A stretch of 64,000 bases of DNA. It comes from a virus. Within the stretch, counting starts at the first letter, position 1; the number at the start of each line of letters is the position of its first letter. The stretch covers positions 1 to 64,000 of IMG/VR virus record IMGVR_UViG_3300005915_000001; one strand, written 5' to 3'. The notes below the pieces were generated by a model, which saw only the letters and a program-made list of their open reading frames with translations, was not told the DNA's origin and ran no database searches. The position numbers and the translations under genes are program-made. Shown here one piece after another: positions 7,044 to 28,987 of the stretch.

Positions 7044-7208
7044 TTACATGTTCACATGTTCGATTTTCACATCTTTCGGGGCTTGGATTGAAATTGTCGC
7101 TGTTGATTGATTTGAGGAGTCAGCGATTGCTATATCCGCGATCACAACACCGTCCTTTTTTAGGATGATTTTGGTTTTATTCGCCGTGATTTGTATTTGC
7201 AGTGCCAT
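7044..7208 (-). CDS. small hypothetical protein
   Basis: This is a 54-residue frame with an excellent AAGGAG six bases before the ATG. It overlaps the end of the coiled-coil gene by 32 bases in another frame. The sequence (MALQIQITANKTKIILKKDG) alternates as beta strands would and ends in HVNM. The terminator at 6980-7022 follows directly, which supports it as a real last gene of its unit. Confidence 0.65.
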   Translation of the reverse strand: MALQIQITANKTKIILKKDGVVIADIAIADSSNQSTATISIQAPKDVKIEHVNM

Positions 7209-7533: not shown

Positions 7534-7544
7534 ATTCATCTCCT

Positions 7545-7581
7545 ATAAAAATGTGTCGTGGGCACAAAGTACCCACGACAC
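7545..7581 (-). terminator. hairpin with U-run in front of a gene
   Basis: A perfect 10-bp stem (7553-7562 with 7572-7581) is followed on the minus strand by ATTTTTAT and then AGGAG of the 7177-7533 gene. It has the same arrangement as at 6812-6857. Confidence 0.55.
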
Positions 7582-7612
7582 AACACGCAACACACAACAC
7601 GCAACCCTCGGC

Positions 7613-8098
7613 TTAGTCGTCCTTCTCGGATACTTCAAGCATCTTGTTGACGGCTTCCTCACCCATAACTGCAATCAACTGTTGTTTCAGCTCGCTCAAT
7701 TTGGATGTCATCTTGACAAGCTTCTTGGCCTTGGCACGATCCTTCGTTGATCCCATCTTCTCAGCTTCAACAGCCAATTTACGGAATGCAATCACTGCAA
7801 GTTCTGCACCAACCGCCCGCATTTCAAAGTACAGATGATCACCAACATAATCCTTCTTTTTCAAGTTTACATGAATCTTGAAATCAAACCCTTCAGGAAC
7901 AGCAACCTTAAAAGGATAGACTCCAGGGTTGAGATCACCGACCTTATCGAAGATTTCTTTTGTTACACGCTTTACCTTGTCAGGTGTTGGTTTTGCAAGT
8001 GACTCATCTTCAGCCTTGTCATTAACCTTGTCAGGTGTGGTCTTGTCATCGACCTTCGGTGCTGATACTGGTGCCTTTGCTGCGTTAGGTTTTGCCAT
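7613..8098 (-). CDS. hypothetical protein with disordered N-terminus
   Basis: The 161-residue protein starts with about 45 residues of Lys/Asp/Pro/Ala-rich low-complexity sequence. A folded part follows, containing PGVYPFKVAVPEGFDFKIHV and then long helices rich in Lys and Leu (KLVKMTSKLSELKQQLIAVM). It might be a nucleoid-binding or replication accessory protein, but no family is recognised. The ribosome site is AAGGAG. Confidence 0.65.
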   Translation of the reverse strand: MAKPNAAKAPVSAPKVDDKTTPDKVNDKAEDESLAKPTPDKVKRVTKEIFDKVGDLNPGVYPFKVAVPEGFDFKIHVNLKKKDYVGDHLYFEMRAVGAELAVIAFRKLAVEAEKMGSTKDRAKAKKLVKMTSKLSELKQQLIAVMGEEAVNKMLEVSEKDD

Positions 8099-8160
8099 TT
8101 TAAATCTCCTTGCCCGTTGGGCATTGTAAAATCACCCGTTAGGGCATTAATAAAAATACA

Positions 8161-8200
8161 TTTAACCCGTGACACGCTTCCTCGCATGCCCTAGGCAAAA
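8161..8200 (-). repeat. intergenic stem-loop repeat, copy A
   Basis: This is a diverged copy of an element with conserved flanks CCTAGG and GTGAC around a short stem. Here the stem is 7 bp, with two G-U pairs in the RNA. It lies between the 8206-8376 and 7613-8098 genes. Two closer copies are at 9083 and 9559. Confidence 0.55.
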
Positions 8201-8205
8201 CATAC

Positions 8206-8376
8206 TTAGTAACTACTTCCAATCTGACAACGACCCCTTTTGCCTTGCTTGTGATGTTGGCCATCGACGTGATGCTTGCCGCGAACTTTGAAACCACAAT
8301 CACCACAGTACTTGTCACTATGCCGTTGCGGATTCATTTTTGGACTGGAAGCAAAGATTTTCTTTTCATTCGGCAT
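8206..8376 (-). CDS. small basic zinc-ribbon-like protein
   Basis: The start at 8376 is fixed by the recurrent leader (here with GGAGACAG). The 56-residue product is strongly basic, with YCGDCGFKVRGKHHVDGQHHK. Two Cys followed by several His could bind zinc or RNA. Function unknown. Confidence 0.6.
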   Translation of the reverse strand: MPNEKKIFASSPKMNPQRHSDKYCGDCGFKVRGKHHVDGQHHKQGKRGRCQIGSSY

Positions 8377-8390
8377 TGTACTGTCTCCTA
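8374..8390 (-). promoter_or_regulatory. recurrent translation leader (one-base variant)
   Basis: TAGGAGACAGTACAATG precedes the small zinc-ribbon gene and decides its start. The frame open to 8427 translates this leader and has no own ribosome site. Confidence 0.7.
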
Positions 8391-8453
8391 TAAAAGTATT
8401 AGTTGAATTGCTATTAATATCCACCATTTATCTCGCTGCGTCATGTCGCTACC

Positions 8454-8774
8454 TCAACTATTTTTATGGTAAGACAATTTACCATTTTCTCGCATTATAC
8501 TCCACGCTTGACCATAATCCTCGTTCTTATTAACTGAGAACATAAAGTCTGCAAGCAGTCCGGCAGAAATATATTCTGATGGTTCGTTTCCGTATCTGAT
8601 GCAAACACTTGTGCCAATCGAATCTTCGTACACATCAACATCGATCCAACGTTTCAATGGCTCTTCATGCTTATAATGCACAAGAATGTAATTTCCTGAT
8701 CCGATGAAACAACCATCTCCATGATTACAGTGATTTTCCCAATGTCTCTTGCTTGACATGAATTCTATTCTCAT
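8454..8774 (-). CDS. hypothetical protein
   Basis: The start at 8774 follows the leader TAGGAGATAGTACAATG. The 106-residue product mixes aromatic beta segments (NYILVHYKHEEPLKRWIDVDVY) with one CIRYGNEPSEYISAGLL segment. No known family is recognised. Translating further upstream only reads the leader as protein. Confidence 0.6.
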   Translation of the reverse strand: MRIEFMSSKRHWENHCNHGDGCFIGSGNYILVHYKHEEPLKRWIDVDVYEDSIGTSVCIRYGNEPSEYISAGLLADFMFSVNKNEDYGQAWSIMRENGKLSYHKNS

Positions 8775-8788
8775 TGTACTATCTCCTA
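8772..8788 (-). promoter_or_regulatory. recurrent translation leader
   Basis: An exact copy of TAGGAGATAGTACAATG that fixes the start of the 106-residue gene. A TTTTTA run precedes it. Confidence 0.75.
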
Positions 8789-8814
8789 TAAAAACTGTCA
8801 TTTGATTCTTCGAA

Positions 8815-9054
8815 TTATTCCCCAAAGACTCTCAACTCTTCGAACTGATTAATCGAAACTTCATCGACTTTCAAGCCGTTGTCTTTGATGAACTCGATGA
8901 CACGTTCCATTGCATCATCACCCATCGAAATGGTCACCAACCAAGTTCCGTCAACATCTACAATATGGTAGCCATCATCAGGATCGCTCCACACAGAGAC
9001 CATTGTGTAGATATTTGGATTAACAGAATTTATTGTCGTTACTATCGCTGTCAT
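8815..9054 (-). CDS. hypothetical protein
   Basis: This 79-residue acidic protein has alternating beta strands (NIYTMVSVWSDPDDGYHIVDV) and a helix ending in FEELRVFGE. The start carries another exact copy of the recurrent leader (9052-9068). Function unknown. Confidence 0.65.
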   Translation of the reverse strand: MTAIVTTINSVNPNIYTMVSVWSDPDDGYHIVDVDGTWLVTISMGDDAMERVIEFIKDNGLKVDEVSINQFEELRVFGE

Positions 9055-11126: not shown

Positions 11127-11128
11127 TT
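11057..11128. repeat. 17-bp imperfect inverted repeat at the polymerase stop
   Basis: Arms 11057-11073 and 11112-11128 pair at 15 of 17 positions with 38 bases between. AGACTTATAG also occurs as a direct repeat within this segment. There is no T-run, so it may be an RNA-processing or factor-binding structure rather than an intrinsic terminator. Confidence 0.5.
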
Positions 11129-13058
11129 ATAGCACTTTATCTGGAACTATAATTTTCCCCTTCTTGCCACCTGCAATGGCCCAATTTTCTTCAGACGTTC
11201 CACATGCGATCCGCATTGGTACCCTGAATTTAATTCCAGTGTCTTCAAATTGTGATTTGATTTCAGTAAGAGCTGTCACGTCTTTGCTCAAACCTTTCGG
11301 GGCATACATTGCGACTTCATCATGCACACTTGCAAAGTTCTTAATTCCTAAATCTCTAATGAATTTATTATATCTCGGAGCCATTGCTACCATTCTCTCT
11401 TTAATGATGTCAGCTGCACAAGATTGAATAATAGAGTTGAACGCCCGAAAGCTTGCTTTCTCAGGTAAGTGACGTTGACGCCCATATGCATTGAAAACAA
11501 ATCCTCTTGAGATAAGATTATCTCTTGCTTGTTTCGTTGTTCGTTTTATTCCTGGTAGTGTGTCATGGTATTCCTGGTAAACCTGCTCACCACGTTGATT
11601 GCATAATAATTGAAAAATCTTTTCACGTGCAGCGACATTTGCTTTTCCACTTGCTATGATTGCGTCGGTTTTATCTGCTAAGTGACCTACCAAATCCATA
11701 TTAAGTGAAAGCATTGACACAACACGAGCTTTGCCTCCACCAAACGCTATTGCAAAGTTTACGTTCTTTGCCGGATCACGAGGAATTTTGCACATATCAG
11801 CAACCCATTGATGAAAGTCTATATCTGGATTTTTTGCGAATGCGGCAATAGCTTTTGCATCTTTGATGTACGAAATAATTAATCGGAACTCGATTTGACT
11901 ATAGTCCCACGAAAGAATCTCTTGATCCTCTGGTGGATGGATTAAGGCCTTTGCTTCCTTAGACAATTGCTGTGAGTTTGGTCGACGACATGACATGCGA
12001 CCAGTTCGAACTATTTGATTGTAAGATGGGTGCATGAGCCCATCGATTTGATGTTCTTGATAAGGTTTAATAAAGATACTATATAAAGTATGCATCTTTC
12101 TGTACTTCTGGATCTTTGTGACAATGTTCATCAACTCAGGTGACTCACGAACTATTGGGTAGGATAAATATGAAAGCATTGCAGCTTTATTAAACGATGG
12201 CTCGTTCTTGTCAGTGTATCCCATAACGGGTAGGCCATACTTATTACACAAAACTTCGAAACAATCTGCATTAGTATGGGGACGAATAGCAAACCCAGTT
12301 AGCTTATGTAATTCTTCTTCGAGATTTATTAATTTATACAGAAGAACCATTTCAGTTTGATCTAATTCTAATGGATCAACATTAAGACCCTCTACTTCCA
12401 TATCAAATAAAACAGGTGTCAATAGGATTTCAGTTTCCCATATTCCTAAAGTCTGTTCATGTCGACGACGCAACATATAATTATACAATTTGCGATTAGT
12501 CAAAACATCTTGACAACCATACTCTCCAATGATGTCACCAGGCACGTCACCATAGTCTTTGCTCTTACATCCAGTCAAATAATTTTGTAAACGATTATCT
12601 AAATACTTAATATCTTCTTCAAGCCAATCTCGTGACAATGAACCAAGATCATGTGCAAACCTGTCACTATTGATTATCTTTGCAAGAGTGTTAGTATCTA
12701 CCAATCGACAATCGAACTCAATGTTGTCTTGCTTTACAAAGTGTGCGTCAAATTTTACATTGTGATTCACCCAATCGTCACAAGAATTAATTGTATCTCT
12801 AGCCCAATTAATCACCCCTTCAAGTGGTAAGTTCCATTTTTCATGATGACAACGGATCGGCATGTACCAAGCACCTTTGATATCGTCAGCAGTGACACCT
12901 ATACCACAGACACGATGCCCATGATATGGCTTAAACGACTTAACCTTTGGATCAAAGGACGTACACTCTGTATCAAGAAATAAAGACTTAGCATTTTTTA
13001 GGTTTGGTAGCTCGTCCAAAGTTTGAACCAACCTACCACCGTTTTCAAAGTTAATCAT
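11127..13058 (-). CDS. family A DNA polymerase with 3'-5' exonuclease domain
   Basis: This is the 643-residue replicative polymerase of the PolA/T7 gp5 type. The exonuclease domain shows LFLDTE (D29, E31) and a later D/Y motif (QDVLTN region near 183). In the polymerase domain, motif A is SWDYSQIEFRL (D385), motif B is RDPAKNVNFAIAFGGG (R427 to G440) and motif C is VHDEV (H579, D580). AGGATACATT precedes the ATG. It lies downstream of the methyltransferase block in the replication operon. Confidence 0.95.
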   Translation of the reverse strand: MINFENGGRLVQTLDELPNLKNAKSLFLDTECTSFDPKVKSFKPYHGHRVCGIGVTADDIKGAWYMPIRCHHEKWNLPLEGVINWARDTINSCDDWVNHNVKFDAHFVKQDNIEFDCRLVDTNTLAKIINSDRFAHDLGSLSRDWLEEDIKYLDNRLQNYLTGCKSKDYGDVPGDIIGEYGCQDVLTNRKLYNYMLRRRHEQTLGIWETEILLTPVLFDMEVEGLNVDPLELDQTEMVLLYKLINLEEELHKLTGFAIRPHTNADCFEVLCNKYGLPVMGYTDKNEPSFNKAAMLSYLSYPIVRESPELMNIVTKIQKYRKMHTLYSIFIKPYQEHQIDGLMHPSYNQIVRTGRMSCRRPNSQQLSKEAKALIHPPEDQEILSWDYSQIEFRLIISYIKDAKAIAAFAKNPDIDFHQWVADMCKIPRDPAKNVNFAIAFGGGKARVVSMLSLNMDLVGHLADKTDAIIASGKANVAAREKIFQLLCNQRGEQVYQEYHDTLPGIKRTTKQARDNLISRGFVFNAYGRQRHLPEKASFRAFNSIIQSCAADIIKERMVAMAPRYNKFIRDLGIKNFASVHDEVAMYAPKGLSKDVTALTEIKSQFEDTGIKFRVPMRIACGTSEENWAIAGGKKGKIIVPDKVL

Positions 13059-13080: not shown

Positions 13081-13800
13081 CTATTTAGTAGGGAAGAATT
13101 TATCTAACATATCATCTATCTTTTTATCTTTCGGATTTCGGTATGTTGGATCGATACGAACAGCGGCGTCATCAAAATAGAATTCATCTAATTCTATTCC
13201 AATAAAGTTTCTATTCAAATTCACACATGCTACACCAGTTGTGCCGCTACCCATGAAAGAATCTAAGACTGTATCACCTTCATTAGTTACAGCTTTAATA
13301 AGCTCTTCAATTAAGTTTACGGGCTTCTGGTTTGGATGTATCAAGTTTGATCCACACACTCTACAAAACCTCATTACAGTGTGAGGTCTATTTACCCTGA
13401 AACAATATCTACCTTTAGTGGCATAGATTATATTCTCATGTTGTGAGGCAAATTCACCTTTTAAATCACCCATACCATGGATTACATTGTCCCATATAAT
13501 CTGAGACTTAACATTGAATCCAACGTTTGCAATCTCTCTACGAAATATATCTTCTACATCCCATCTTTCAAATCAGATAAGTCTCCCCGAATTTACAAGT
13601 ACCCTAAAAGCTTCTGGTAACCACTCTATATATGGTGACTTGTCATTTTCTATTTTATCTTTCCACTGATTTTTATCCGTCCGCCGGCTAGACTGATAAT
13701 CAATTCCATACGGAGGATCTGCCAATACCATATCAACTGATCCATCAGGAATTGATTTCATTTCTTCAAGACAGTCACCATGTATTAACTGAATGCTCAT
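13081..13800 (-). pseudogene. DNA methyltransferase (DPPY type) interrupted by in-frame TGA
   Basis: From the ATG at 13800 the frame encodes the shared family start (MSIQLIHGDCLEEMKSIPDG, then LADPPYG). It reaches TGA at 13575-13573 where the protein reads GRLI, and continues in the same frame with FERWDVEDIF, QIIWDNVIHGMGDLK, HPNQKPV and SFMGSGTTG to a TAG at 13081. The sense of both halves is intact, so a single nonsense change (or recoding, or an error) separates two parts of a 239-residue N6-adenine or N4-cytosine methyltransferase. It overlaps the upstream gene by 4 bases. Confidence 0.75.
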
Positions 13801-15457: not shown

Positions 15458-16240
15458 TCATTCTCCAAAGAACTTATCTAACATGTCATCTATCTTTTTA
15501 TCTTTCGGATTTCTATAAGTCGGATCAATACGAACAGCAGCGTCATCAAAATAAAATTCGTCTAATTCTATTCCAATAAAGTTTCTATTCAAATTCACAC
15601 ATGCTACACCAGTTGTACCTGATCCCATACAGAAGTCCAAAACAGTCTCGCCTTCGTTTGTGTAGGTCTTGATTAGGTACTCCATCAGGGCGACAGGCTT
15701 TTGAGTGGGGTGAACCCGACACTTCTGCTTATCGGTGGGGAAATGCAATACGGTTCTGGGGTATCTTTCTGTTGAATCATAGCCCACCAACCCATGTTCT
15801 CCATAGCAATCTGTTTTTACACAGCCCCGTTTATGTTCCGCAGTGCTGACTTTGCGTTTGTGTCCGGTTGTTTTCTGGGGGTTGTAGATTGGAGGTGAGG
15901 CATAAAACACTGGAATGTCCTCGTGAGCCTTCATAGGCATCTTTTTAGCATTCAAATGGCCTGTGGCTGCAGACTTATCCCACACCCAGCAATACTTAAA
16001 CCACGGCATGTTAGAGCCTATCAGCGTCGTTGTGAACGGCTGCGAAGCAGTCATGACAATCGCACCATTGGGCTTAATAACCCGCCTCAGATGTGCCCAC
16101 ATTGACTCCAACGGAATTATACTATCCCACTCACATGCCGTTGTACCATATGGAGGATCAGCCAAAACCATGTCCACAGACCCATCAGGAATTGATTTCA
16201 TTTCTTCAAGACAATCGCCATTGATTAGTTGTATAGACAT
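15458..16240 (-). CDS. DNA methyltransferase (DPPY/MGSGTTG, beta class order)
   Basis: A 260-residue N6-adenine or N4-cytosine methyltransferase. Catalytic motif DPPY is at 28-31, and the AdoMet motif [10 protein letters not shown] is near the C-terminus (202-211), with HPTQKPV at 177-183. The first 30 and the last 60 residues nearly match the genes at 13081-13800, 16249-17083 and 61273-62079. The middle differs and is visibly richer in G and C than its flanks, so this gene looks mosaic. Target sequence unknown. Confidence 0.88.
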   Translation of the reverse strand: MSIQLINGDCLEEMKSIPDGSVDMVLADPPYGTTACEWDSIIPLESMWAHLRRVIKPNGAIVMTASQPFTTTLIGSNMPWFKYCWVWDKSAATGHLNAKKMPMKAHEDIPVFYASPPIYNPQKTTGHKRKVSTAEHKRGCVKTDCYGEHGLVGYDSTERYPRTVLHFPTDKQKCRVHPTQKPVALMEYLIKTYTNEGETVLDFCMGSGTTGVACVNLNRNFIGIELDEFYFDDAAVRIDPTYRNPKDKKIDDMLDKFFGE

Positions 16241-16248: not shown

Positions 16249-17083
16249 CTAAAACTCCTTGAAAAACATATCTAATATGTCATCTATCTTTTTATCTTTA
16301 GGATTTCTATATTTTGGATCTATTCTAATTGCAGCATCATCAAAATAGAATTCATCTAACTCAATGCCTATGAAACTTCTGTTTAAATTCACGCATGCTA
16401 CACCAGTTGTACCACTACCCATACAAAAGTCCAAGAACTGTATCACCTTCATTGCTCCATGAAATGATGTGATCGTTTGCTAATTTTTCTGGGAAAGGTG
16501 CTGGATGTATACTTCTAAGACTTTGTGGATTAATATTCCATATATTATACCGTTGCCCAAATTCAGGTTGAATAGATCCTTCATTACTCATTCGTTTCAT
16601 TGATCCATCAGATTGCCTTATTGTGCCTCTTTTAATTGATCCAAACGAATTGCATACCCTGTCCTTGATTGGATTGAATGTTTTTAGATTACACTCACTG
16701 AAAACAAACATATACTCAAACACTGATGCATACCTAACAATTAATGTACCAACTGCAGAGAATCCAGGCTTTGCATATATCATCGTGTCATGCAAATTGA
16801 ATCCACAATCCATTGCATACAATGCTTGCTTGAAACTCGTTCCTGTTTCGCTCCCATTAACAGTTGCATCTCCAACAACCCATACAACGACTCCACCTAT
16901 TTTAGTAACACGATAGAGATTTTCAATACATGGTTTCCATATATGTGGTCCCCATCCTTTGAAATCTTCACCGTAATCTCTCAGATTATCATATGGTGGA
17001 CTCGTGACAGTTAGATCAACTGACCCATCAGGAATTGATTTCATTTCTTCAAGGCAATTACCATGTATTAGTTGTATAGACAT
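16249..17083 (-). pseudogene. DNA methyltransferase (SPPY type) with a single-base frameshift
   Basis: The frame from 17083 encodes the shared start, then VTSPPYDNLRDYG, a motif IV typical of N4-cytosine enzymes. It ends out of frame at 16415, right after NEGDTVLG. The sister genes read [13 protein letters not shown] here, and exactly that resumes in another frame and runs to 16249. Comparison with the copy at 61.4 kb shows one extra base in the run around 16435. Either the enzyme is inactive, or a sequence error or frameshifting is involved. Confidence 0.75.
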
Positions 17084-17089: not shown

Positions 17090-19969
17090 TTAGAACTCCT
17101 CATTCACATAGTCAGGTCGAGCATTTAATTTCATTTCGTCTGACACTAGCAACTCTTTCAAAAACTCAATGAACTTTGGAGTCTTGCGATAACCACGACC
17201 GTCGCGCTGTAGTGCATTCTTTCTAACAAGCAGCGAAAGCAGCTGAGCCGTTGGCCCTTTGTCCCATCCACACCAGTCACAAATATCTCTGAACTCAATT
17301 AGATTTGTATAAAGCAACTGCTGAACAAAGTCTTCAGGAAATGGTGATTGTAATATTCGTTGTGATAATAACTTTGGATTTAATAATTTGTTTGTAGCAC
17401 TAATCGCTTTACTGAAATCTCGATACCCAAAAATACTTTCCGAGTATGTTTTCTCAAGATATTTTGTAATATATTCAACGTGACATCGTCGTACTATTAC
17501 AGTATGCAAGTCACCATCTTCTGTCGAGAATGTCCGGCAAGCCAATGCAATTGCCAATCTACAAAGCTTGAACCTCATTGAACCACGGTCAACTATTGGT
17601 ATGATCTCTGTGAACATTGTGCAAAGTCTTGTTGCTTCATCCAGAATAAAATCAACAGCATCATCTGTGAATGTCACTTGCTCAGCTGTTCGTGTCCATG
17701 CCCAAAGAATTAACGACTTACTTAATTTCGCTGTGTGCTTATGCTCTACGTGTGGTCTATACTTTTGTAGTTTATTCAGCACATCAGATTTTATCTGTGT
17801 AGACGCAGTGATTAAGACAGTATCAAATCGTCGGATGTCTTCAAGACTACCAATAAGTTCTTTGACAGCTTCAATGCCAAAGTTGTATGAACTAATCGGC
17901 ATGTCACTACGTGGATTACTCACCATTATTAGTCTAGTCCTGGCATGGGTTCGTCGCTTTTCAATCTTCGGAATTTCAGCAACTCCTGACGAACGCATGT
18001 CTGTAAGTTTTCCAATAACTTCAACACTTGTTCCTTTGATTTCTTCGAGGATGACAAGACGCTTATCGTGAGTAGGTATGACTCCCCACGTAACAAACCA
18101 CCGATTACCAGAACTGACTTGTTGGAGTCCTCCAAGAAGTCCCGCGACTGTTGCATTCTTACATTCGATTCGTTCGCCGAGTCCATAGTGTTCCATTAAT
18201 CTTAAAATCGCTTCTGATTTTCCCTGTGAACTGTCCCCAGTAATTAAAGTCTCTACCCAACCTTTTGTGAGCTTACCATCGAACTTAAATAACAACGTGC
18301 TATGATACGTCAAGTCAATTACAAAATGAAGAGGTTGTCTTTCAAAAATGTGTGTTATGTTTGCAGACAGATCATCATATATATTTTTGAGTTTCTTATC
18401 TATTGATTCAACAGTCCACTCATCTGGTTGAAAAATTTCTAATTCTTTTAACTCATTGTCATCAGGTTTGAAATTTGACAAAGCATCTTCAGTAGTTTTT
18501 GATTCACTGATTAGAATTATGCTTTGTTGCGTTTTTGGATGCGGATACATCCTACCAATGAACTCATAGTTTTCATTAGTCTCAAGACCATGACCAACAC
18601 ACAATGCAGGTTGTAATATATCATCAACAGATCTTGAACTGATTTCTAACTGCGGTGACAATCGAATATCTTCGATATTAAAATATGTCTCTGGCTTGAA
18701 TTCTACATTCTTGCATGTTGGAATATGTAGACCATCCATTAAAGCTTCTCGTTGTGTGCTTTTCCCTGCTGCTACCATCTCAAGTATAGCTGGTGATTCT
18801 GGATGTAATTCAATTGAAACCATTCCATCTACATCAGGATCTTTTGCAAAAACTGGGCATATACTGCATCCATTTTGATTTCTATCACAATTAGCTTTGA
18901 TCTTTCTCGGTATAACATAAGGGGCAGTGTCCATTGCAGTCACTGTCGCTTTTATTCTGATTCGTTTGCCTGTGTACTTGGCTTGCGATGCTTGATTTAG
19001 ATGCAAGTCAATTATCTCTGTGCTCATCTCCGAACTAACTTCGAACACTGATTCCCACTCAGATGTGGACTCCATGAGTTTTATAAAGCTTGGTGCTGTC
19101 TTTTTCTCCACTCCAAAATAATCATTGATGTCGCCATTAGGATGCTTTTCAACGTCTAACGGTAATAAGATATTAAAAATCTTATTTACATCTTTCTTTA
19201 ATCTTGCACAAATAGAATCAGCAGCATCACGACCTGCCTTGTCTATATCAGTGCAAGCATAGACGTCCTTACCTTTAAAGAATTGGTTGAATGATATGTC
19301 CCAATTACCTTCACCCGCAGTTGCTGTTATTGCTCCGATCCCGTGTTTGTTTAATCTAGCAGCAGCAACAATTGCTTTCACCTCACCTCCACATAAAATT
19401 ATTTTACCATACTTCAATTGTTCAAGAGGAAATAGTCTAATCTTACCATGACCTCTTTTATTTTTCATTTTCTCTGGTCCAGGGGCTCCTGGAAGATATC
19501 GGCGGACATTAACTATTACGCCGTTTACGTTCGGAATTGGAATACTAATTCGACCATCATCACAACCTAATCTATATTTTCTAATTACAGTGTCGGTGAC
19601 TCCTCTATCACGAAGAGCTTTCAACAAAGGCTTTGCAGCCCATATACTTTCATGCCATCGCTCGACAGCACTTGTATCTATCGGCTTGATATTTTCAATT
19701 GCATATCGTGTAGACAACTCCTCCCACATGACTACACGGGTAGTGCTTAGAGCTTTAGCCAAGTAGGAAACTAAATCCCCTTTTGCACCACAGCCTGCGG
19801 TGTGACATTTGAATAAATTATTCTTAACATTTATGGAACAACTTGGAGTTTTATCATCATGAAATACACACTTGACTTTAACCTCATTTTCCGTTGCAAA
19901 CTCATACGGTATACCACACCGTTCGAGTTCGGCTAAACATCCTATACTCTGTAGTTGTTGCTCTGTCAT
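17090..19969 (-). CDS. primase fused to an MCM-like AAA+ helicase
   Basis: This is a 959-residue protein from the ATG at 19969; a GTG at 20002 with AGG upstream is an alternative. The order of domains is: CHC2-type zinc site (C34, H37, C55, C60), TOPRIM (CGGE with E196; TDIDKAG at 241), a region with OB-like strands and a Cys cluster (C361, C368, C371), then an AAA+ ATPase. In the ATPase, Walker A is GDSSQGKS at 578-585, Walker B is LVILEE at 638-643, a sensor Asn is in VSNPRSD (N685), and RRFD at 713-716 matches the MCM arginine-finger motif. It should prime and unwind at the fork. The C-terminus is VNEEF. Confidence 0.85.
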   Translation of the reverse strand: MTEQQLQSIGCLAELERCGIPYEFATENEVKVKCVFHDDKTPSCSINVKNNLFKCHTAGCGAKGDLVSYLAKALSTTRVVMWEELSTRYAIENIKPIDTSAVERWHESIWAAKPLLKALRDRGVTDTVIRKYRLGCDDGRISIPIPNVNGVIVNVRRYLPGAPGPEKMKNKRGHGKIRLFPLEQLKYGKIILCGGEVKAIVAAARLNKHGIGAITATAGEGNWDISFNQFFKGKDVYACTDIDKAGRDAADSICARLKKDVNKIFNILLPLDVEKHPNGDINDYFGVEKKTAPSFIKLMESTSEWESVFEVSSEMSTEIIDLHLNQASQAKYTGKRIRIKATVTAMDTAPYVIPRKIKANCDRNQNGCSICPVFAKDPDVDGMVSIELHPESPAILEMVAAGKSTQREALMDGLHIPTCKNVEFKPETYFNIEDIRLSPQLEISSRSVDDILQPALCVGHGLETNENYEFIGRMYPHPKTQQSIILISESKTTEDALSNFKPDDNELKELEIFQPDEWTVESIDKKLKNIYDDLSANITHIFERQPLHFVIDLTYHSTLLFKFDGKLTKGWVETLITGDSSQGKSEAILRLMEHYGLGERIECKNATVAGLLGGLQQVSSGNRWFVTWGVIPTHDKRLVILEEIKGTSVEVIGKLTDMRSSGVAEIPKIEKRRTHARTRLIMVSNPRSDMPISSYNFGIEAVKELIGSLEDIRRFDTVLITASTQIKSDVLNKLQKYRPHVEHKHTAKLSKSLILWAWTRTAEQVTFTDDAVDFILDEATRLCTMFTEIIPIVDRGSMRFKLCRLAIALACRTFSTEDGDLHTVIVRRCHVEYITKYLEKTYSESIFGYRDFSKAISATNKLLNPKLLSQRILQSPFPEDFVQQLLYTNLIEFRDICDWCGWDKGPTAQLLSLLVRKNALQRDGRGYRKTPKFIEFLKELLVSDEMKLNARPDYVNEEF

Positions 19970-20075: not shown

Positions 20076-20933
20076 TTAGAATTCTTCAGAAGGAGGGACA
20101 GCCGATTTGTCTTTCTCACCAGCTTCAGGCTCATATGTCGCTTGGATCTCTGAATCTACCCGAAGCTTATCAAAATCATTGTGCAATTGCTCAAAGATGG
20201 GTTGTTCTTCTTTCGTAACCCAAGGTACTGCATCTGATGGGTTTTCAATATCCAAACCATACCAGTCACCTGACCCGTCTCCAGGACGATATGCCACAAC
20301 AGCTTCGAACACACAATTAAACAATGAAGTTTTACGCATCTTAATCAATGATGCAAACTTCTGACCTGAGAAGTGTTCTCCCTTGGAAAATGACATTACA
20401 CAGGGTTCAGATCCTAGTCCATGATCGTAAAGGCAAACTAAGAAATTCAAATGCTCGACATGTCTTATCTGCATTGTTGGATCTTCAAGGTATTTTGGAT
20501 GTGGTTCAAACCTCAGTTGTTTTGATTTAGCTTTTGCAACGATGGGATCATTTGGATCAGTCGTACGATAAATAATCGCAGGTTCTTGACCTTTCAATTT
20601 ATATGGATTCCATGTGCACCACTCAGCCCAAAATATAATAGGAACAAATTTGAATTTTGAAATAGTTCCTTCAACAACACGTCCTTTATTATCTCTTTCC
20701 ATTTCTGTAATTACAGCATTAGTTGGTGACAAAATCACATCACCAACACCAAAAGCTGCAAGCAATTCAGCTGCCGCAGTTTTCTGAACCATTTTAATAT
20801 ATGGAGGTCTTACGTACTGCTTCAATTCCTCAAGACCTTTTACATCTTTACCTTCAAGAAAATCAGGCAGAGGCATTGAAAGGTCTGGAGTGATCTTTGT
20901 AATCTCTTCACTAACATCTTTAGTTTTAGCCAT
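20076..20933 (-). CDS. single-stranded DNA-binding protein (phage type, putative)
   Basis: This 285-residue protein probably coats ssDNA at the fork. The central part has repeated beta strands with aromatic residues (KFKFVPIIFWAEWCTWNPYKL, HLNFLVCLYDH). The C-terminal 40 residues are disordered and acidic, ending PPSEEF, the form of SSB partner-binding tails. It sits between the SNF2-helicase genes and the primase-helicase. The family call rests on context, tail and composition, since phage SSBs are poorly conserved. AAGGAATG precedes the start. Confidence 0.65.
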   Translation of the reverse strand: MAKTKDVSEEITKITPDLSMPLPDFLEGKDVKGLEELKQYVRPPYIKMVQKTAAAELLAAFGVGDVILSPTNAVITEMERDNKGRVVEGTISKFKFVPIIFWAEWCTWNPYKLKGQEPAIIYRTTDPNDPIVAKAKSKQLRFEPHPKYLEDPTMQIRHVEHLNFLVCLYDHGLGSEPCVMSFSKGEHFSGQKFASLIKMRKTSLFNCVFEAVVAYRPGDGSGDWYGLDIENPSDAVPWVTKEEQPIFEQLHNDFDKLRVDSEIQATYEPEAGEKDKSAVPPSEEF

Positions 20934-21601: not shown

Positions 21602-21941
21602 TGCTTTGTCCTTTCCAAACTGATTTATCCATAAACTTTTCTATGTACTCACTATTACTGCTATTGAATAGCAACATTTTAAATTTGTCGAAACTTTGAG
21701 AAATTGGAATAAGAGCGACTGAAACAGTAACTAAAGATCCAACGATGCACAGATAGTCAACCAACGGATCATAATTATGGATTAATAATTGATGTAATAC
21801 CGCTCGACCATATCGTGGATGATCGAATACTCCGACGCGCCTTTGCATTGGTTTGAATAGATAAATTATCTCACCAAACTTTTCAGCTGAACTAACATCA
21901 ATATATCGTCGTGGTTCTTCAATGATGAATACTTTAGACAT
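21594..21941 (-). CDS. hypothetical protein
   Basis: The product is 115 residues from the ATG at 21941, which has GGTGAAGAG upstream. The later part has a hydrophobic stretch (YLCIVGSLVTVSVALIPI) that is either a membrane segment or a buried strand pair. It overlaps the helicase stop and the next gene's start by 8 bases each, so it is translationally coupled. Function unknown. Confidence 0.6.
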   Translation of the reverse strand: MSKVFIIEEPRRYIDVSSAEKFGEIIYLFKPMQRRVGVFDHPRYGRAVLHQLLIHNYDPLVDYLCIVGSLVTVSVALIPISQSFDKFKMLLFNSSNSEYIEKFMDKSVWKGQSNE

Positions 21942-23991
21942 TCTCTTCACCTGTTCTGGGGACATAACTTAAAATCTTTTGCATAATGTTTGTAACGTCT
22001 TGCAGTTTTACTGCATTTATTTTCTTATCAACAACCCTACATGCAATCTCTTCATCGATAGTTCCTGGAAAAATTAAATCAGTAATCATAACCGAGACTC
22101 TTGTTCCTTTTCTCACTGCACGGTCTTCACTTTGCGTTCTATGAATCATTGACCAACTTTGCGAGGTATAGATTTCTTGTGTTGTGTTGCATCCATGATC
22201 TTTTGTAGTTCCTACCCACTCAGGTATATGTCCCCACAAATCGAGGCCGACTCCCCCAGCTGCGGGATTACCGAGAAATACTTTACAACTTGGGTCTTCA
22301 TTGTATTGGCGTTGAGCTTCCTCCCTATCCCTGTCACTTGTTCCACCGAAGTATGTAACATGCTTGATTCCTTCTTCATCCAGTCTTTTGGATAATGTTT
22401 TTATTACATGAACCCAATTAGTCCAGATAATGGTTTTATCAAATTTTGTTTTTGATTTAAGAATTTCAATAACTGCATCAATTTTGGGATTAGGAAATAT
22501 ATCTTCAATACTACCGCCAGTAGAATTACCAGCATCATCGATTACTGCATCCCATTTAATATATCCAGAGGTGATTTGTGAAAGTCGAAGGAGCTTCGTT
22601 AAGATATTTTTTGCAGTAAGCTGTTGATTGGTAGATCGTTCCATATCGGCTTCGATTTCAATAGCAAGTTTCTTTTGCAAATTAATATAGCATTCTCTTT
22701 GAAACTTTGACATCTCTACTTCATAAATATCATAAGTTTTACCAGGTAATTCAGGCATTGCTTCTTTGCGTGTGATCATGAAGCAAAGACGTGCAAATCG
22801 TTCTTGAATAATTGGAAGATTATTATACCCATTTAAGATTTCTCGATGGTTTTCATCAGCTGGAAGAAACTTTCCATAATAACTTCTAAAAGCTTTGTAT
22901 GATGTAAATCCGCTGAGTCCTTCACCGAGCCATTCTAATTGCGTCCATGCATCAAATAAACTATTTGCAATTGGTGTTCCTGTTAATCCTGATCTGCTCT
23001 TACAAATTTCACGAAGTTCTAAAATGCGCTTCCAACGCTTTGTTTTATCACTCTTAATCATGTGGGCTTCATCTAATGAGCAGTGATCCCACTCTACCAT
23101 ACGTATTGCTTCCCATGATTGTTGTATAGTTCCGTACGAACAAATCACAACAGTGTACTCACAGTCATCATCTGGTTTAAATGCTTCGCACATTAATTTA
23201 ACGCGATCAAGTTGACCACCTCGCAGAACAGTCAACTTTCCAGGATGTACTGCGAAATCCATGAACTTATTATGCCAACTCATTCGCACACACTTAGGAA
23301 CAACGATCAATGCACGATACATACGTTTTTCTTTTTTGTAGACTCTATGTGCTTCGTAACAAACTCTTGAGATTATAACAGGAGTCTTTCCAGTTCCTTG
23401 CTCACCCCAATGGTTTGCACCATCTTCGTATAAAGATGAAGCGAGTGCTGCTTTCTGAGAATCCATCAGAGGTCTCTTTGGATGATCAATCCAATCATCA
23501 GGCATTTCAGGGATTATTTTATGTAGTTTGTATTTAGCTTTGATTTCTGAATTAAATGTTTGCTTCATGAATCTAATCAAAAGATAGTCATAAACTATTT
23601 TCGCATCATCTTCAAAGCTTAACCTATCTTTATCCCAAAGTGCGTTCGTTAAAATTGCAGTAAAATCTGTGCATGCTACAAGAAATTGAACTAGACCAAA
23701 ACCAACAACGAGTTTTCTTTCAGGGATACGTTGTATGAATCTTTTATACAACCAAGAGGAAGTGACTTCTCTGCCATCAGAAGTTAAAGCATAGAACTTA
23801 AAAAGAAAACGCTTACCTTCTTTGTCGAGAGAGATATGAAGTTTATCGTTGCTTGCAAATGGGATTGGTAAGAACAATCTTTTAGTGGAATCACTAAGAG
23901 GTTCAATAAACTTTTGAGAAATGAGATCTGGCGTGGGGATAATAGGGGATGGTAGAAACAATTGTAGTTTTGGTGAGGAGAGTAAATTCAT
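21934..23991 (-). CDS. SNF2/DEAD-box superfamily 2 helicase
   Basis: This 685-residue SF2 ATPase has Walker A GEQGTGKT at 196-203, motif II DEAH at 307-310, motif III-like LTGTPIANS near 336, and C-terminal helicase motifs including TIIWTNWV and the Q-x-x-x-R region HRTQSEDRAVRKG. Phage SNF2 enzymes act in recombination and replication restart. The ATG at 23991 with AAAGGAC is preferred; the frame is open to 24174, but that part overlaps the promoter at 24044-24072. It is the first gene of the replication operon. Confidence 0.88.
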   Translation of the reverse strand: MNLLSSPKLQLFLPSPIIPTPDLISQKFIEPLSDSTKRLFLPIPFASNDKLHISLDKEGKRFLFKFYALTSDGREVTSSWLYKRFIQRIPERKLVVGFGLVQFLVACTDFTAILTNALWDKDRLSFEDDAKIVYDYLLIRFMKQTFNSEIKAKYKLHKIIPEMPDDWIDHPKRPLMDSQKAALASSLYEDGANHWGEQGTGKTPVIISRVCYEAHRVYKKEKRMYRALIVVPKCVRMSWHNKFMDFAVHPGKLTVLRGGQLDRVKLMCEAFKPDDDCEYTVVICSYGTIQQSWEAIRMVEWDHCSLDEAHMIKSDKTKRWKRILELREICKSRSGLTGTPIANSLFDAWTQLEWLGEGLSGFTSYKAFRSYYGKFLPADENHREILNGYNNLPIIQERFARLCFMITRKEAMPELPGKTYDIYEVEMSKFQRECYINLQKKLAIEIEADMERSTNQQLTAKNILTKLLRLSQITSGYIKWDAVIDDAGNSTGGSIEDIFPNPKIDAVIEILKSKTKFDKTIIWTNWVHVIKTLSKRLDEEGIKHVTYFGGTSDRDREEAQRQYNEDPSCKVFLGNPAAGGVGLDLWGHIPEWVGTTKDHGCNTTQEIYTSQSWSMIHRTQSEDRAVRKGTRVSVMITDLIFPGTIDEEIACRVVDKKINAVKLQDVTNIMQKILSYVPRTGEENV

Positions 23992-24043
23992 AATTTTGTC
24001 CTTTGTACTATGTACTATGTACTGCACTTTTTCCAATATGCGT

Positions 24044-24072
24044 ATTATACCATAATACACCTTGTTTGTAAA
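24044..24072 (-). promoter_or_regulatory. strong sigma70-like promoter of the replication operon
   Basis: The -10 TATAAT is perfect (24044-24049), the spacer is 17 bases and the -35 is TTTACA (24067-24072). Upstream lies AAAAATTTTTTAATTTTGTCTATTTT in two parts, matching the box before the 10.8-kb promoter. The leader contains three direct copies of TAGTACA-like units before the ribosome site. Confidence 0.75.
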
Positions 24073-24170
24073 CAATAAAATAGACAAAATTAAAAAATTT
24101 TTTATAAATAAACAGAGCATGAAACTCAAAACTTGAGAAGACTTGAAGAGACCTGGAAAGGATTTTAAGA

Positions 24171-24764
24171 TCATGCCCTGTTTAAAAGCGATTTGTTTTT
24201 TCTAACTTTTCTTGAAGCTTGGTAGTGTACAATAACAGGATTTTTAATTTCAGTCATACGACGATGTATGCAGCAGTATTCTCCCGGAAGTTTATGGTAG
24301 GAACTACCAACAACTTTTTGTAATGACTTTTGATCCCAAACTTTCGGATGAGTTCTGCATTCTTCAATCCACTTTTCAACTAAACTAATAGTGCTTTCAT
24401 TATTTTGCAGAAACAATGTACCACTTAGTAATTCCATTAGATTGCTTTTATTATGTGGGTAGTATTTTGCTTGACTGAATTCAAATGCCGCAATATCGCA
24501 AGTCAAAGAATCAAACAAAACTGGATATCTTTTAAACTCCGCATCGCAATCAACCCATATAATATTTTCATTAGGATGTGCTTTAAGCATTTGCAATAAA
24601 AATGTTGGTTTATGATTCGTGTTTTTGAACCAACACTTTTGATTTATAATTGATCGTACATCATGTGGAATTTTAAATTTATCCATTGACTTAATCAAAA
24701 CCAACGATAAATCTTTATAGAAAGTGTTCTCGGTAAAGTAACTTGCAACTACCCATGATTTCAT
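24171..24764 (-). CDS. glycosyltransferase-like protein (nucleotide-sugar transferase fold)
   Basis: The product is 197 residues from the ATG at 24764; a TTG at 24782 is less likely. WVVASYFTENTFYKDL opens a GT-A-like fold. IIWVDCDAEFKRYP near 75-88 carries the D-x-D motif that binds metal and nucleotide sugar, and later FQ-rich and WDQKSLQK segments fit PF03407-type transferases. It is the last gene of the glycan cassette, on the replication side of the 40-bp inverted repeat. Acceptor unknown. Confidence 0.7.
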   Translation of the reverse strand: MKSWVVASYFTENTFYKDLSLVLIKSMDKFKIPHDVRSIINQKCWFKNTNHKPTFLLQMLKAHPNENIIWVDCDAEFKRYPVLFDSLTCDIAAFEFSQAKYYPHNKSNLMELLSGTLFLQNNESTISLVEKWIEECRTHPKVWDQKSLQKVVGSSYHKLPGEYCCIHRRMTEIKNPVIVHYQASRKVRKNKSLLNRA

Positions 24765-25004
24765 ATTGTTCAACCTAACCAAATAATGCTTGGTAACTGA
24801 TAATTGAAAGTCGTCCTGGGTTAGGTCATACCCCCCTACCCCGAGTATCTATTTAATTATAGATATAAAAGACCAACAATACATATTCTATATATTATAC
24901 TATACTATACTAATAAGACAGTTTTTAAGTCTATACAAACAAAGGACTTAGAGATAGCTATTCAAATAGGGGTCTATGACCTACCCCGGGACAACTTTGC
25001 ATTA
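24765..25004. other. 240-base noncoding segment at the cassette boundary
   Basis: It holds most of an imperfect 40-bp inverted repeat and an AT-rich centre with TATACTATACTATACT repeats and several small palindromes. No gene or clear terminator T-run is seen. Confidence 0.5.
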
Positions 25005-25014
25005 TCAGTTACCA
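24791..25014. repeat. imperfect 40-bp inverted repeat (224-bp element)
   Basis: Arms 24791-24830 and 24975-25014 both begin TGGTAACTGATAAT when read outward-in and end in TAGGTCATA, with about 33 of 40 positions matching. Similarity continues a little inward (CCCCTA). The right arm includes the last codons of the NeuB-like gene. It may be a long RNA hairpin, a recombination scar or the remnant of a small mobile element. Confidence 0.75.
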
Positions 25015-25832
25015 GCTACTTTTCTGAGTTTTTGCTTTATGTTTTCTTCAGACTCAAACACAGTCCACGTGCCGTCACCCATCGCTTCTTTGATAATTTT
25101 AGCATTACGACAAATCAATTCCGCTCCTTTTGGTTCAATGCTTGATGCTTGATCGGACCCATACATAGATCGATCTAACGTTAGGTGGAACTCAATCATT
25201 TCTACACCTAATACAGCAGCAGCAGTGCAAAATACAGTGCTTGGACTATGATTAGAAAATCCAATTTTAAGTGAAGGAAACTGAGCTTCTAATGTTTGTA
25301 TGAAATTTAAATTCATCTCTTCAGGTTTCGTTGGATAAGTGGATGTGCATGCAAGAATATATTCTAAGTTTTCACCTAAAGTATCTATCGCAATTTCAAT
25401 TTCATATTTGGTAGACATCCCAGTACTGAGAATTATTTTCTTACCAGTTTTCTTTATAGCGTGTAGCAATCCCAGATCAGTCAATGAAGCTGATGCAACT
25501 TTAATATACTCGTTGTTGAATTGATTTAGAAAATCTACAGATTCAATGTCCCATGGAGACGCAAACCAAATCATTCCCTTATCTTCAACATACATATCAA
25601 TTTCTTTATAATCTATCTCACTGAGTTCAAGACCAAACTTCTGATCACGATTTGTATTGCCCCATGGAGAGTTCCTAAACCGATCAAGATCTTCTTTCGT
25701 GTAAATAACTTCAACAGTTCGTTTTTGAAACTTCACTGCGTCACATCCTGCTCTGGCTGCAACATCAATAAGTTTCTTTACAATATCCATATCGCCATTA
25801 TGATTGATTCCAATTTCCGCTACTATCATCAT
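25005..25832 (-). CDS. neuB: NeuB-family nonulosonate (sialic acid-type) synthase, short form
   Basis: The 275-residue enzyme should condense phosphoenolpyruvate with an N-acylated hexosamine to a nine-carbon acid. Family motifs are clear: AEIGINHNGDM at the start, DAVKFQKR, ILSTGMST, TYPTKPEEMNL, IGFSNHS, EMIEFHLTLDR and GSDQASS, covering the TIM-barrel and its active site. The usual C-terminal SAF (antifreeze-like) domain of about 60 residues is missing, and the gene ends inside the 40-bp repeat arm. The start at 25832 has AAGGAAAA upstream. Confidence 0.85.
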   Translation of the reverse strand: MMIVAEIGINHNGDMDIVKKLIDVAARAGCDAVKFQKRTVEVIYTKEDLDRFRNSPWGNTNRDQKFGLELSEIDYKEIDMYVEDKGMIWFASPWDIESVDFLNQFNNEYIKVASASLTDLGLLHAIKKTGKKIILSTGMSTKYEIEIAIDTLGENLEYILACTSTYPTKPEEMNLNFIQTLEAQFPSLKIGFSNHSPSTVFCTAAAVLGVEMIEFHLTLDRSMYGSDQASSIEPKGAELICRNAKIIKEAMGDGTWTVFESEENIKQKLRKVAGN

Positions 25833-25833
25833 A

Positions 25834-27204
25834 CTATTTTTTCCTTGCATAAAATGTTATTACGTTGCCTAATGCTGGTGGTGATATCTTTGATGTATCA
25901 TGTAATCGTCTAAAATTTTTGATTGTGAAATGTTCAGTATTGTAAAAGGGTTGAGTGACATTTTCAACTTCAAACATCAAATCAGTTAATAATCTAAACA
26001 AATCAAATGCGCCGAATAAACTAATATGAGTTTTGTCTTTTAAAAGTCTGAAGTTATCACCAAATCGCTTTGCTGTTTCACATTGAAAGTCTGGTGTACC
26101 CAATATGAGTCTACCATTAGGTTTCAATACTCTTCGAATCTCAAGTAATAGATCAATCGGATCTTTCACATGCTCAATAACGTGATAAAGTACAACTACA
26201 TCAAACGAATCACTTTCATACTTAGCACCTTGTAGAGTTCCCGCTAAAACTTTACCATATTGTTTAGCGTGCTCCTGTGCATATTCACTGATATCAACTC
26301 CATATTTATTCCACCGCTCATCTATAGCTGATAAGAAAAACCCTAAGCCACATCCAACATCGAGGATCTTTCCAGGCTGTAAACTATTTATATAATTAAT
26401 CTCTTCAGTACATTCATCAATTCTTTTTTCCTTCTCATTAGACTTATCCCTCACCTTCCCATCAGGATCAACTACATCTTCCCAATAATTTGTGTATGAT
26501 CCATTATTTGGAATGTCACGACTCTGATAATAGACCGCTTTTTTCATTAATCGTTGTTTCATCAAAGCCTCAACGACTACCCAATCATCTTCAGTATCAA
26601 TATGATAAGCATCTCGCTCAGGGATAACTACCTTTAGAAAATTCTCACCGAGCCTATTACCTGTGAACCTCAATGCATCAACGAAAGTCACCCAACAGTT
26701 ACCAACTTCTTTGATATGTGGACTGATATCCTCATACATTGGTCTTGCTATAACATGGAGGTAGTCTTCGATACTATTTAGTTGAAAGCTATAATCCTGA
26801 ACAGCACAACACACTGCATCGAGGTTTGTACTTTGCAGCTTCATAATACATTTATCTATGTGCTTAGGTGTATTTAGAGGGTTGGTAGGCTCCAGCGTCA
26901 CTACCATCTCATATTTAGTAGAAAGACATTCTAAAACATGCAAAAGAGTTTCTTCAGTTTTTGAATATGCTGTCGCTATATCATCAGGTCTCTTTATATA
27001 TTTGATCTTATCCCCAAATAAGTCTTTACCTACTTTAAGTATGTCGTCACTATCTGAAGCAAGCACTACATCACTCACAAGATTTGATTCTAAAGCATTT
27101 TTGATCTGGTAGTAAATCAAAGGCTTACCACAAATATCTCGTATGTTTTTTAATTTGATTCTTTTCGAACCGCCTCTTGCTGGTATGACTGCAAGTATTT
27201 TCAT
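25834..27204 (-). CDS. CMP-nonulosonate cytidylyltransferase fused to SAM methyltransferase
   Basis: This is a 456-residue two-domain protein. Residues 1 to about 225 are NeuA-like: VIPARGGSKRIKLKNI (CTP loop), LASDSDDIL and TLEPTNPL are visible. It would activate the nine-carbon sugar with CMP. Residues about 240-456 are a class I methyltransferase with ILDVGCGLGFFLSA (AdoMet loop), VVLYHVIEHV and LKPNGRLILGTP. The fusion suggests the sugar or glycan is methylated. The stop nearly abuts the NeuB start and its own start overlaps the upstream gene by 4 bases. Confidence 0.85.
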   Translation of the reverse strand: MKILAVIPARGGSKRIKLKNIRDICGKPLIYYQIKNALESNLVSDVVLASDSDDILKVGKDLFGDKIKYIKRPDDIATAYSKTEETLLHVLECLSTKYEMVVTLEPTNPLNTPKHIDKCIMKLQSTNLDAVCCAVQDYSFQLNSIEDYLHVIARPMYEDISPHIKEVGNCWVTFVDALRFTGNRLGENFLKVVIPERDAYHIDTEDDWVVVEALMKQRLMKKAVYYQSRDIPNNGSYTNYWEDVVDPDGKVRDKSNEKEKRIDECTEEINYINSLQPGKILDVGCGLGFFLSAIDERWNKYGVDISEYAQEHAKQYGKVLAGTLQGAKYESDSFDVVVLYHVIEHVKDPIDLLLEIRRVLKPNGRLILGTPDFQCETAKRFGDNFRLLKDKTHISLFGAFDLFRLLTDLMFEVENVTQPFYNTEHFTIKNFRRLHDTSKISPPALGNVITFYARKK

Positions 27205-28280
27205 TTATCTACAAAGAGAACCTTTGCTCCACGCACACGCACAATATCGAATGTTCCTTCTTTACGAATATAAAATCCGTTCCTGAGATTATCAGGACCG
27301 TCCAATTTTCCAGTACAGTGTAATGCAACCATTCTACATCCTGCATCACACCGATCAAACAAGTGACACCTTCTGCATTCTTTTGGTACAACAATCGATG
27401 ATCTCCATGATTGCATATTGTCCCACACACCTGCAATACCTACCTCATGGATGTTTCCATAGACTGTGTCGTCTGAAACACAAGCATGAGCATCACCATT
27501 CACATTTAATAGTATATGCTTCTTACCTGCTGCACATCCACGGTCTGTAAAATCTTTGTATTTTTCTAAATCTGGAAATAGACACATAGGAACAGTTCTG
27601 CATGTTCCAATTTTCATGCCATACATTTTCTTTAGTCTTATCAAATCATCGAACGCATTTAATACATCATCTTTGTCAACACATTCAAAGCTGCCAGGAT
27701 TTGAAGGGCTTGGTATAACTCGATTTACTAGAAACTGTTTAACTCCAATCTTTCTAACAATCTCTCCAATCTCATAGATGTCACCGACGTTGCGCTTTGT
27801 CAATACAGTATTCACTGTCACACGTATACCGGTCTGTTGGGCTTCTTGTATACATTGTATAGTCTTTTTCCAATCACCTTCAGCACCAGTAATTGCATCA
27901 TGCTTTTTTGAATCTGATGCATGTATTGACGTAAGTATGTGATCAATGCCTACTGATTTTAAAATTTCAAGCTTGTCCCCATGAACATCTTTCATATTTG
28001 AATTGAGACTGATTGTTATATTATTCTCAAGACAACGTTTTGCTAAGTATGCTACACTTGACATCGCTAGAGTTGGTTCTCCACCTGTGATGATAACATG
28101 CATCACTTTGTTTTTGATAATTTCATCAACAGTAGCTTTTAAATTCTCATCTGTGATTGTGTGACGTGGTGCACTTTCTTCTCTTGAGAAGTTATAACAG
28201 TGTTTACACTTCTCGTTGCATGCATCTGTGATCTCTACGTGTACTGTTATTGGGGCTGAGATATTCCAATACTTACTCAT
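27201..28280 (-). CDS. radical SAM enzyme with SPASM-type C-terminus
   Basis: The 359-residue protein binds a [4Fe-4S] cluster through C21-x3-C25-x2-C28 (CNEKCKHC). ITGGEPTLA is the GGE motif contacting SAM. The C-terminal third carries further Cys (GCAAGKKH, CVSD, CRRCHLFDRCDAGC) that fit auxiliary clusters of SPASM proteins. Such enzymes modify peptides, proteins or sugars. In this cassette it may act on a sugar or a protein acceptor. It overlaps both neighbours by 4 bases. Confidence 0.85.
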   Translation of the reverse strand: MSKYWNISAPITVHVEITDACNEKCKHCYNFSREESAPRHTITDENLKATVDEIIKNKVMHVIITGGEPTLAMSSVAYLAKRCLENNITISLNSNMKDVHGDKLEILKSVGIDHILTSIHASDSKKHDAITGAEGDWKKTIQCIQEAQQTGIRVTVNTVLTKRNVGDIYEIGEIVRKIGVKQFLVNRVIPSPSNPGSFECVDKDDVLNAFDDLIRLKKMYGMKIGTCRTVPMCLFPDLEKYKDFTDRGCAAGKKHILLNVNGDAHACVSDDTVYGNIHEVGIAGVWDNMQSWRSSIVVPKECRRCHLFDRCDAGCRMVALHCTGKLDGPDNLRNGFYIRKEGTFDIVRVRGAKVLFVDK

Positions 28281-28987
28281 AATTCCATCGCCTTTTCTAT
28301 CGTCATTTTTCTAAACTTAGTTAAACTGCCGTTGGACGCATCAATGATATCAATATGTTTTAAATCTAACTTGTTCCAAAATTTCAAATGATAAGACAGC
28401 TCACCATCTGTTTTGCCTCCAGGATTGTCCGGTCCTAATGGTCTACGATATTTTGCATACTCAGGTTTTAGCAGATATTCGTTTGGTTGATCAGAAAAGT
28501 TGTGATACCTCTTAAGACCATTGGCATATTTTAAATCACAACCAATTAAAACTATTGGTGAGCAACCCATGACATATGCAAGATGAAGTGCTGGATGAAT
28601 AGATGATGAACCATGGACTAAAAGGTTTCCTTTGTCATATATATTATCAATCTTTCTACCGATGTAATGAATACGTTTTTGGTCTATACCGTCAAAAACT
28701 TTTCCGTCTATTCGATCTTCGAATGCACTAAATCCGCAGTTTGATCCAAGGATCAATTGACATTTTAAATTTCTTAATGTTGTCCATGACTTCCAGAGTA
28801 CCAAGCCTGTATCACAACTGAAATAGTAATCAGCTTTTGGGGCTTTTAATATTGAGCTATTCACTGCAATAACAATGTGTTTTTCAATGCACTCTGGTTT
28901 TAAATTTCGTAGAGATGGGCCTGTACCTAAAAGGAAACATGTTCTACCCTTGTGTCTGTCTTGATATGTTTTAAGATCTTCAAGCAT
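28277..28987 (-). CDS. DUF115 / Maf-like glycosyltransferase-fold protein
   Basis: The product is 236 residues from the ATG at 28987 with AAGGAAATACA upstream. The start CFLLGTGPSLRNL is the nucleotide-binding loop, AVNSSILKAPKADYYFSCDT and SPIVLIGCDLKYANG are further DUF115 (PF01973) signatures, and YHN follows. DUF115 proteins include flagellin glycosyltransferases of the Maf family that transfer nonulosonic acids, and MptE pterin kinases. The NeuB/NeuA neighbours favour the former. Confidence 0.72.
   Translation of the reverse strand: MLEDLKTYQDRHKGRTCFLLGTGPSLRNLKPECIEKHIVIAVNSSILKAPKADYYFSCDTGLVLWKSWTTLRNLKCQLILGSNCGFSAFEDRIDGKVFDGIDQKRIHYIGRKIDNIYDKGNLLVHGSSSIHPALHLAYVMGCSPIVLIGCDLKYANGLKRYHNFSDQPNEYLLKPEYAKYRRPLGPDNPGGKTDGELSYHLKFWNKLDLKHIDIIDASNGSLTKFRKMTIEKAMEL

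Follow-up and report, generated by a model that had tools for sequence, protein, structure and literature searches.

An uncultured tailed phage encodes a TOPRIM primase and an MCM-type helicase in one chain

An uncultured tailed phage carries, in one polypeptide chain, a bacterial-style primase and an archaeal/eukaryotic-style MCM helicase. The phage is represented by a 66,531-base virus record (IMGVR_UViG_3300005915_000001) whose structural genes include terminase, portal, tape measure and a lambda J-like tail protein, and the window that we analysed is the stretch of 64,000 nucleotides from position 1 to position 64,000 of this record. An earlier note, made from the letters of the window, had proposed a primase fused to an MCM-like helicase, and the open reading frame with all the motifs that it named is indeed present: it comprises 959 codons (17090-19969) and, as read from the sequence, lies on the minus strand, which is the orientation of all identified genes in the record, while the plus strand at this place is packed with stops. 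An in-frame GTG at 20002 offers an alternative start that would extend the protein by 11 residues, and no second match to the fusion protein was found in the 66,531-base record.

Primase and helicase halves of the fusion protein

The gene and its primase part are organised as follows:

17090-19969, minus strand: TOPRIM primase-MCM fusion gene, 959 aa (ATG at 19969; relatives near in sequence align from residue 1)
19700-19879, minus strand: DnaG-type CHC2 zinc ribbon, residues 31-90 (Pfam PF01807, E 4.4e-8, above cut-off)
19415-19672, minus strand: N-terminal part of the DnaG RNA-polymerase core, residues ~100-185 (family profile against solved DnaG cores, from residue 130 on)
19121-19414, minus strand: TOPRIM catalytic domain with E196, D241 and D243, residues ~186-283 (Toprim_2, E 8e-4)

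The primase parts recognised in the earlier note are borne out by these matches, as both hallmarks of a DnaG-type primase are found, namely the CHC2 zinc ribbon (C34, H37, C55 and C60) and a TOPRIM domain with its Glu and DxD residues (E196 and D241xD243), the latter kept in 66/66 aligned sequences. A family profile matched solved DnaG cores with an E value of 5e-15 from residue 130 onward, and DNAG_N gave a weak match in one relative of the fusion protein. No Pfam match to an AEP primase domain was obtained in the fusion protein, the N-terminus of which is CHC2/TOPRIM.

The remainder of the chain comprises a linker and the MCM part:

19010-19072, minus strand: primase-MCM linker, residues ~300-320 (internal low-confidence segment in the models)
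18470-19009, minus strand: MCM N-tier, OB fold with zinc-type cysteines C361, C368, C371 and C419, residues ~321-500 (structure alignment to SsoMCM from model residue 19; cysteines kept in 66/66)
17615-18337, minus strand: MCM AAA+ domain, residues ~545-785 (Pfam MCM; profile and structure matches)
18215-18238, minus strand: Walker A GDSSQGKS, residues 578-585 (G578, D579, G583 and K584 invariant)
18041-18058, minus strand: Walker B region LVILEE, residues 638-643 (E643 in 66/66; E/D642 in 66/66)
17915-17917, minus strand: sensor-1 Asn, N685 (66/66)
17822-17833, minus strand: arginine-finger motif RRFD (SRFD in MCMs), residues 713-716 (R714 in 66/66)
17147-17377, minus strand: predicted C-terminal winged helix, residues ~865-941 (helix-helix-helix-strand-strand pattern in the models)

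The single sequence matches Pfam MCM with an E value of 1.8e-3 and a score of 17.9 (curated cut-off 23.3), and relatives scoring 27.3, 27.7 and 51.0 pass this cut-off. Among PDB chains, a diverse six-member family profile matched DnaG over the N-terminal third (E 1.6e-30) and MCM6 over the AAA+ domain (E 9.8e-10), and a 54-member profile of residues 300-959 matched MCM proteins only. In AlphaFold2 models built from family alignments, residues 300-959 reached a pLDDT of 88.9; a Foldseek search with the predicted structure retrieved MCM6 (E 4.5e-23), and the best 50 PDB matches were all MCMs (archaeal or MCM2-7). Alignment with Sulfolobus SsoMCM (Z 30.4, 448 residues, rmsd 4.9) places model residues 19-557 on SsoMCM 103-607, and residues ~317-856 are modelled as a full MCM fold, with an N-tier (OB fold and putative zinc site) and an AAA+ domain. 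Since the alignment starts only at SsoMCM residue 103, the primase may have taken the place of the helical A subdomain. The last ~80 residues are suggested by the models to form a winged helix, as in MCMs. The pTM of 0.68 leaves the arrangement of the primase relative to the ring unfixed.

The earlier note had set its MCM reading against helicases of the DnaB/gp4 and D5 types, and the MCM reading stood, the profile matches and the top 50 structure matches being MCMs throughout. That a DnaB/gp4-type or D5/SF3 helicase has been misread as MCM has a negligible chance of being correct: the N-terminal half does match PHROGs primase/helicase families, and most phage TOPRIM primase-helicases are, as general knowledge has it, of the T7 gp4 or DnaB-linked kinds, but the profile of the helicase half matches nothing but MCMs, and the predicted structure aligns with MCM over both the N-tier and the AAA+ domain. 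A RecA-fold DnaB/gp4 helicase is excluded by these two results together with the lack of any DnaB_C (PF03796) match in the phage record at E up to 1, and a D5/SF3 helicase by the lack of D5_N/SF3 Pfam matches at E up to 1 and by best matches that are MCMs. Profile, structure and conservation likewise exclude a chance motif match.

Walker A, Walker B, the sensor-1 Asn and the SRFD-type arginine finger follow one another in MCM-type order, as the earlier note had read them, and are invariant or nearly so across 66 sequences; K668, at the position of the pre-sensor-1 hairpin, is kept in 63/66, and the MCM hairpin regions of the fusion protein align with archaeal MCM. The OB/Cys region that had been placed between primase and AAA+ domain was also located there, with four invariant cysteines that may bind zinc and whose spacing departs from the usual MCM pattern. 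Taken over the zinc ribbon, the TOPRIM centre, the N-tier cysteines and the ATPase centre, all 18 checked catalytic or metal residues are kept in 64/66 aligned sequences, the two exceptions having lost one zinc-ribbon cysteine each, and because these residues are intact the primase and MCM halves are probably both active. A decayed or repair-related protein in place of a replication enzyme might be considered in view of the diversity of the relatives and of the fact that we know of no biochemically characterised TOPRIM-MCM protein, but it is highly improbable given this conservation of the catalytic residues and the open frame, and given that the gene sits with PolA and SNF2 genes and encodes the sole primase and replicative helicase recognised.

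Relatives and exchange of the primase type

Relatives of the fusion protein occur in at least 246 IMG/VR stretches, and most of the 80 that were kept align from their first ~30 residues through to the end. Named records include about 50 phages of Microbacterium, Arthrobacter, Bacillus, Weizmannia and Paenibacillus, in which the protein is usually annotated as primase or primase/helicase, and one P. larvae plasmid record that also encodes a TOPRIM-MCM relative. The joined form is therefore uncommon relative to DnaB systems, as the earlier note had stated, but it is not rare. A scan of genome contigs gave a match on one bacterial MAG contig only, and single-sequence searches of viral contigs with P0002 and P0007 yielded no confirmed relatives. 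A description of a TOPRIM-MCM fusion was not found in the literature searched; an earlier mention is possible, so "undescribed" is provisional, and the fusion is apparently under-described.

The closest public named record is the uncultured siphovirus ctIqW946 (MW202657, Manatee Spring), whose fusion protein is 44.5% identical over 98% and which shares with the phage studied here the SNF2-like gene, small ORFs and the fusion order, whereas its accessory genes differ and its fusion is annotated 'DNA directed DNA polymerase'. The same full-length domain order is found at about 25-31% identity in the Krampusvirus group (Microbacterium), Wollypog (Arthrobacter), the BSP7/BSTP group (Bacillus), Youna2 (Weizmannia) and Paenibacillus larvae phages, where the proteins are labelled DNA primase or primase/helicase only, or in some cases 'DNA primase small subunit', and some of these cultured phages have DnaE in place of PolA. 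The names given to MW202657 8001-10847 ('DNA directed DNA polymerase') and to Youna2 5944-8961 ('DNA primase small subunit') are wrong for their domain content, and annotations of these kinds (primase, 'primase small subunit', 'DNA polymerase') can now be corrected in about 50 phage records. In Youna2 and BSP7 the PolA domain is divided between two ORFs several hundred bases apart, which may reflect an intron or an inserted element.

AEP-MCM proteins of bacterial mobile elements are already in the literature (PMC5862659). In a B. velezensis record and in Bacillus prophages and phages, an AEP primase with PriS and PriL Pfam matches precedes a homologous MCM module (phrog_18685), which matches residues 317-938 of the fusion protein with an E value of 1.9e-86. 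These Bacillus proteins are likewise single chains of primase and MCM, share the C-terminal module from the OB/zinc region through the AAA+ domain to the C-terminus and also have PolA and a DEAD-type helicase as neighbours, but their primase is of the archaeo-eukaryotic PriS/PriL type (PF01896/PF04104) instead of the bacterial DnaG/TOPRIM type, and the helicase halves are about 28% identical. They probably belong with the B. cereus prophage protein described by McGeoch and Bell 2005 and by Samuels 2009 (cited in PMC5862659).

With an AEP primase located before a homologous MCM in the Bacillus lineage, sequence comparison indicates that the primase type has been exchanged next to a shared MCM module, and TOPRIM-MCM is the known phage primase-MCM fusion type with TOPRIM instead of AEP. 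Trees built on the MCM module set the AEP forms apart from the rest by a fully supported branch, such that a single change of primase type suffices. Trees rooted on haloarchaeal virus MCMs place the AEP clade within TOPRIM lineages, with weak support and very long branches; on removal of two long-branch rows monophyly of the TOPRIM forms is compatible with the data (p-AU 0.795), and the trees thus give no direction for the swap. To our knowledge, bacterial chromosomes are not replicated by MCM, and in the literature that we found phage MCMs come with archaeo-eukaryotic primases. The conserved fusion of a bacterial primase with MCM shows that systems for priming and for unwinding can be combined across the two cellular replication lineages, and that one primase half can be exchanged for another.

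Genomic setting and proposed role at the fork

Three further genes of the surrounding region are:

11127-13058, minus strand: family A DNA polymerase with 3'-5' exonuclease, likely partner (Pfam DNA_pol_A, E 1e-40)
21934-24174, minus strand: SNF2-type helicase, conserved neighbour in the replication region (Pfam SNF2-rel_dom, E 4e-28; phrog_62)
20076-20933, minus strand: Pam3 gp34-like protein, upstream neighbour (PF23977, E 4e-7)

A further upstream neighbour at 21594-21965 matches the Pam3 gp32-like family PF23992, and together with the gp34-like protein (PF23977) it may tie this stretch to the region where phage Pam3 has its replication genes. The early region also encodes DNA ligase, exonuclease and several DNA methyltransferases. 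Three related methyltransferase genes, at 13081-13473, 15458-16240 and 16415-17083, share blocks of 80-93% identical DNA; the one at 13081 is a C-terminal half only and the one at 16415 has a divergent tail end, a pattern that suggests duplication and recombination of methylases. A sugar/modification cassette of roughly 10 kb (24171-34327) separates the early genes from the tail module. It encodes a glycosyltransferase-like protein, a NeuB sialic/nonulosonic acid synthase, a cytidylyltransferase-methyltransferase fusion, two radical SAM proteins (one B12-binding), an MptE-like protein and a TylF methyltransferase, and it looks, from its gene content, like phage-borne synthesis of a nonulosonic-acid surface sugar.

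The record contains one CHC2 gene. DnaB_C was found in none of 24 records of fusion-bearing relatives (environmental, and possibly incomplete), whereas PolA was present in 22/24. As DnaB_C is absent from the phage record and from these 24, the fusion protein probably serves the phage as its own primase and replicative helicase in one. Given that environmental records may be incomplete, a separate helicase or the host DnaB may nevertheless be used.

Alternatively, the MCM part could be a Rep-like initiator helicase that recognises and melts the origin, leaving the fork to host DnaB and only the first primer to the fused primase. The MCM-like helicases Cch and Cch2 of SCCmec mobile elements have been proposed as initiator helicases, Cch2 being an active 3'-5' helicase with need for an iteron sequence (PMC7581432), the predicted winged helix could bind DNA, and the search of the early region recognised no gene for another initiator. 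We nonetheless consider an initiator role unlikely, as the phage's own PolA, ligase, exonuclease and SNF2 helicase point to an autonomous replisome, and since primase and helicase stay joined in nearly every relative, priming is presumably repeated as the fork advances. Searches near the gene for origin marks (iterons, skew switch) found nothing convincing, including no clear iteron array.

MCM rings travel 3'-5' on the leading strand with the N-tier ahead, and in the eukaryotic replisome (CMG) the N face, which leads, is where the primase is positioned, beside the excluded lagging strand (PMC12593628). For the combined primase-helicase favoured here, six subunits would encircle the leading-strand template and move 3'-5', N-tier ahead, with the flexible linker (residues ~300-320) tethering the primases to the N-tier. 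Tethered in this way, the primases would come to lie at the leading face, adjoining the excluded lagging strand, and would there make RNA primers for the phage PolA. Sequence and predicted structure establish the two domains, their order in the chain, the intact catalytic residues and the conservation of the fusion; the ring, its polarity and geometry and a self-sufficient replisome we infer by analogy with MCM biology. On balance we lean towards a widespread class of phage replisomes in which a 3'-5', N-first MCM ring would bear bacterial-type RNA primases on its leading face, a hybrid in one polypeptide of bacterial priming with archaeal/eukaryotic unwinding, two unrelated primase types (TOPRIM and AEP) having been exchanged before the same MCM. 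As some relatives belong to phages of Bacillus subtilis and Microbacterium that can be cultured, the covalent primase-helicase is a compact model for primase placement on an N-first 3'-5' ring.

Comparison with known replication systems

In the CMG, the position of Pol alpha-primase is the one that we propose for the fused primases. Archaeal MCM and MCM2-7 share with the phage protein an N-tier with OB fold and zinc-type cysteines, the AAA+ fold and the MCM motifs, but they are without a fused primase and are 12-15% identical to it in the structure alignment. T7 gp4 and Twinkle, as is generally known, likewise combine a zinc and TOPRIM primase with a ring helicase in a single chain, but their helicase is a RecA-fold enzyme that moves 5'-3' on the lagging strand, whereas here it is an MCM AAA+ domain. 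In T7 gp4 the primase lies at the trailing face of a 5'-3' ring around the lagging strand, while in the phage fusion it would lead a ring of the opposite polarity.
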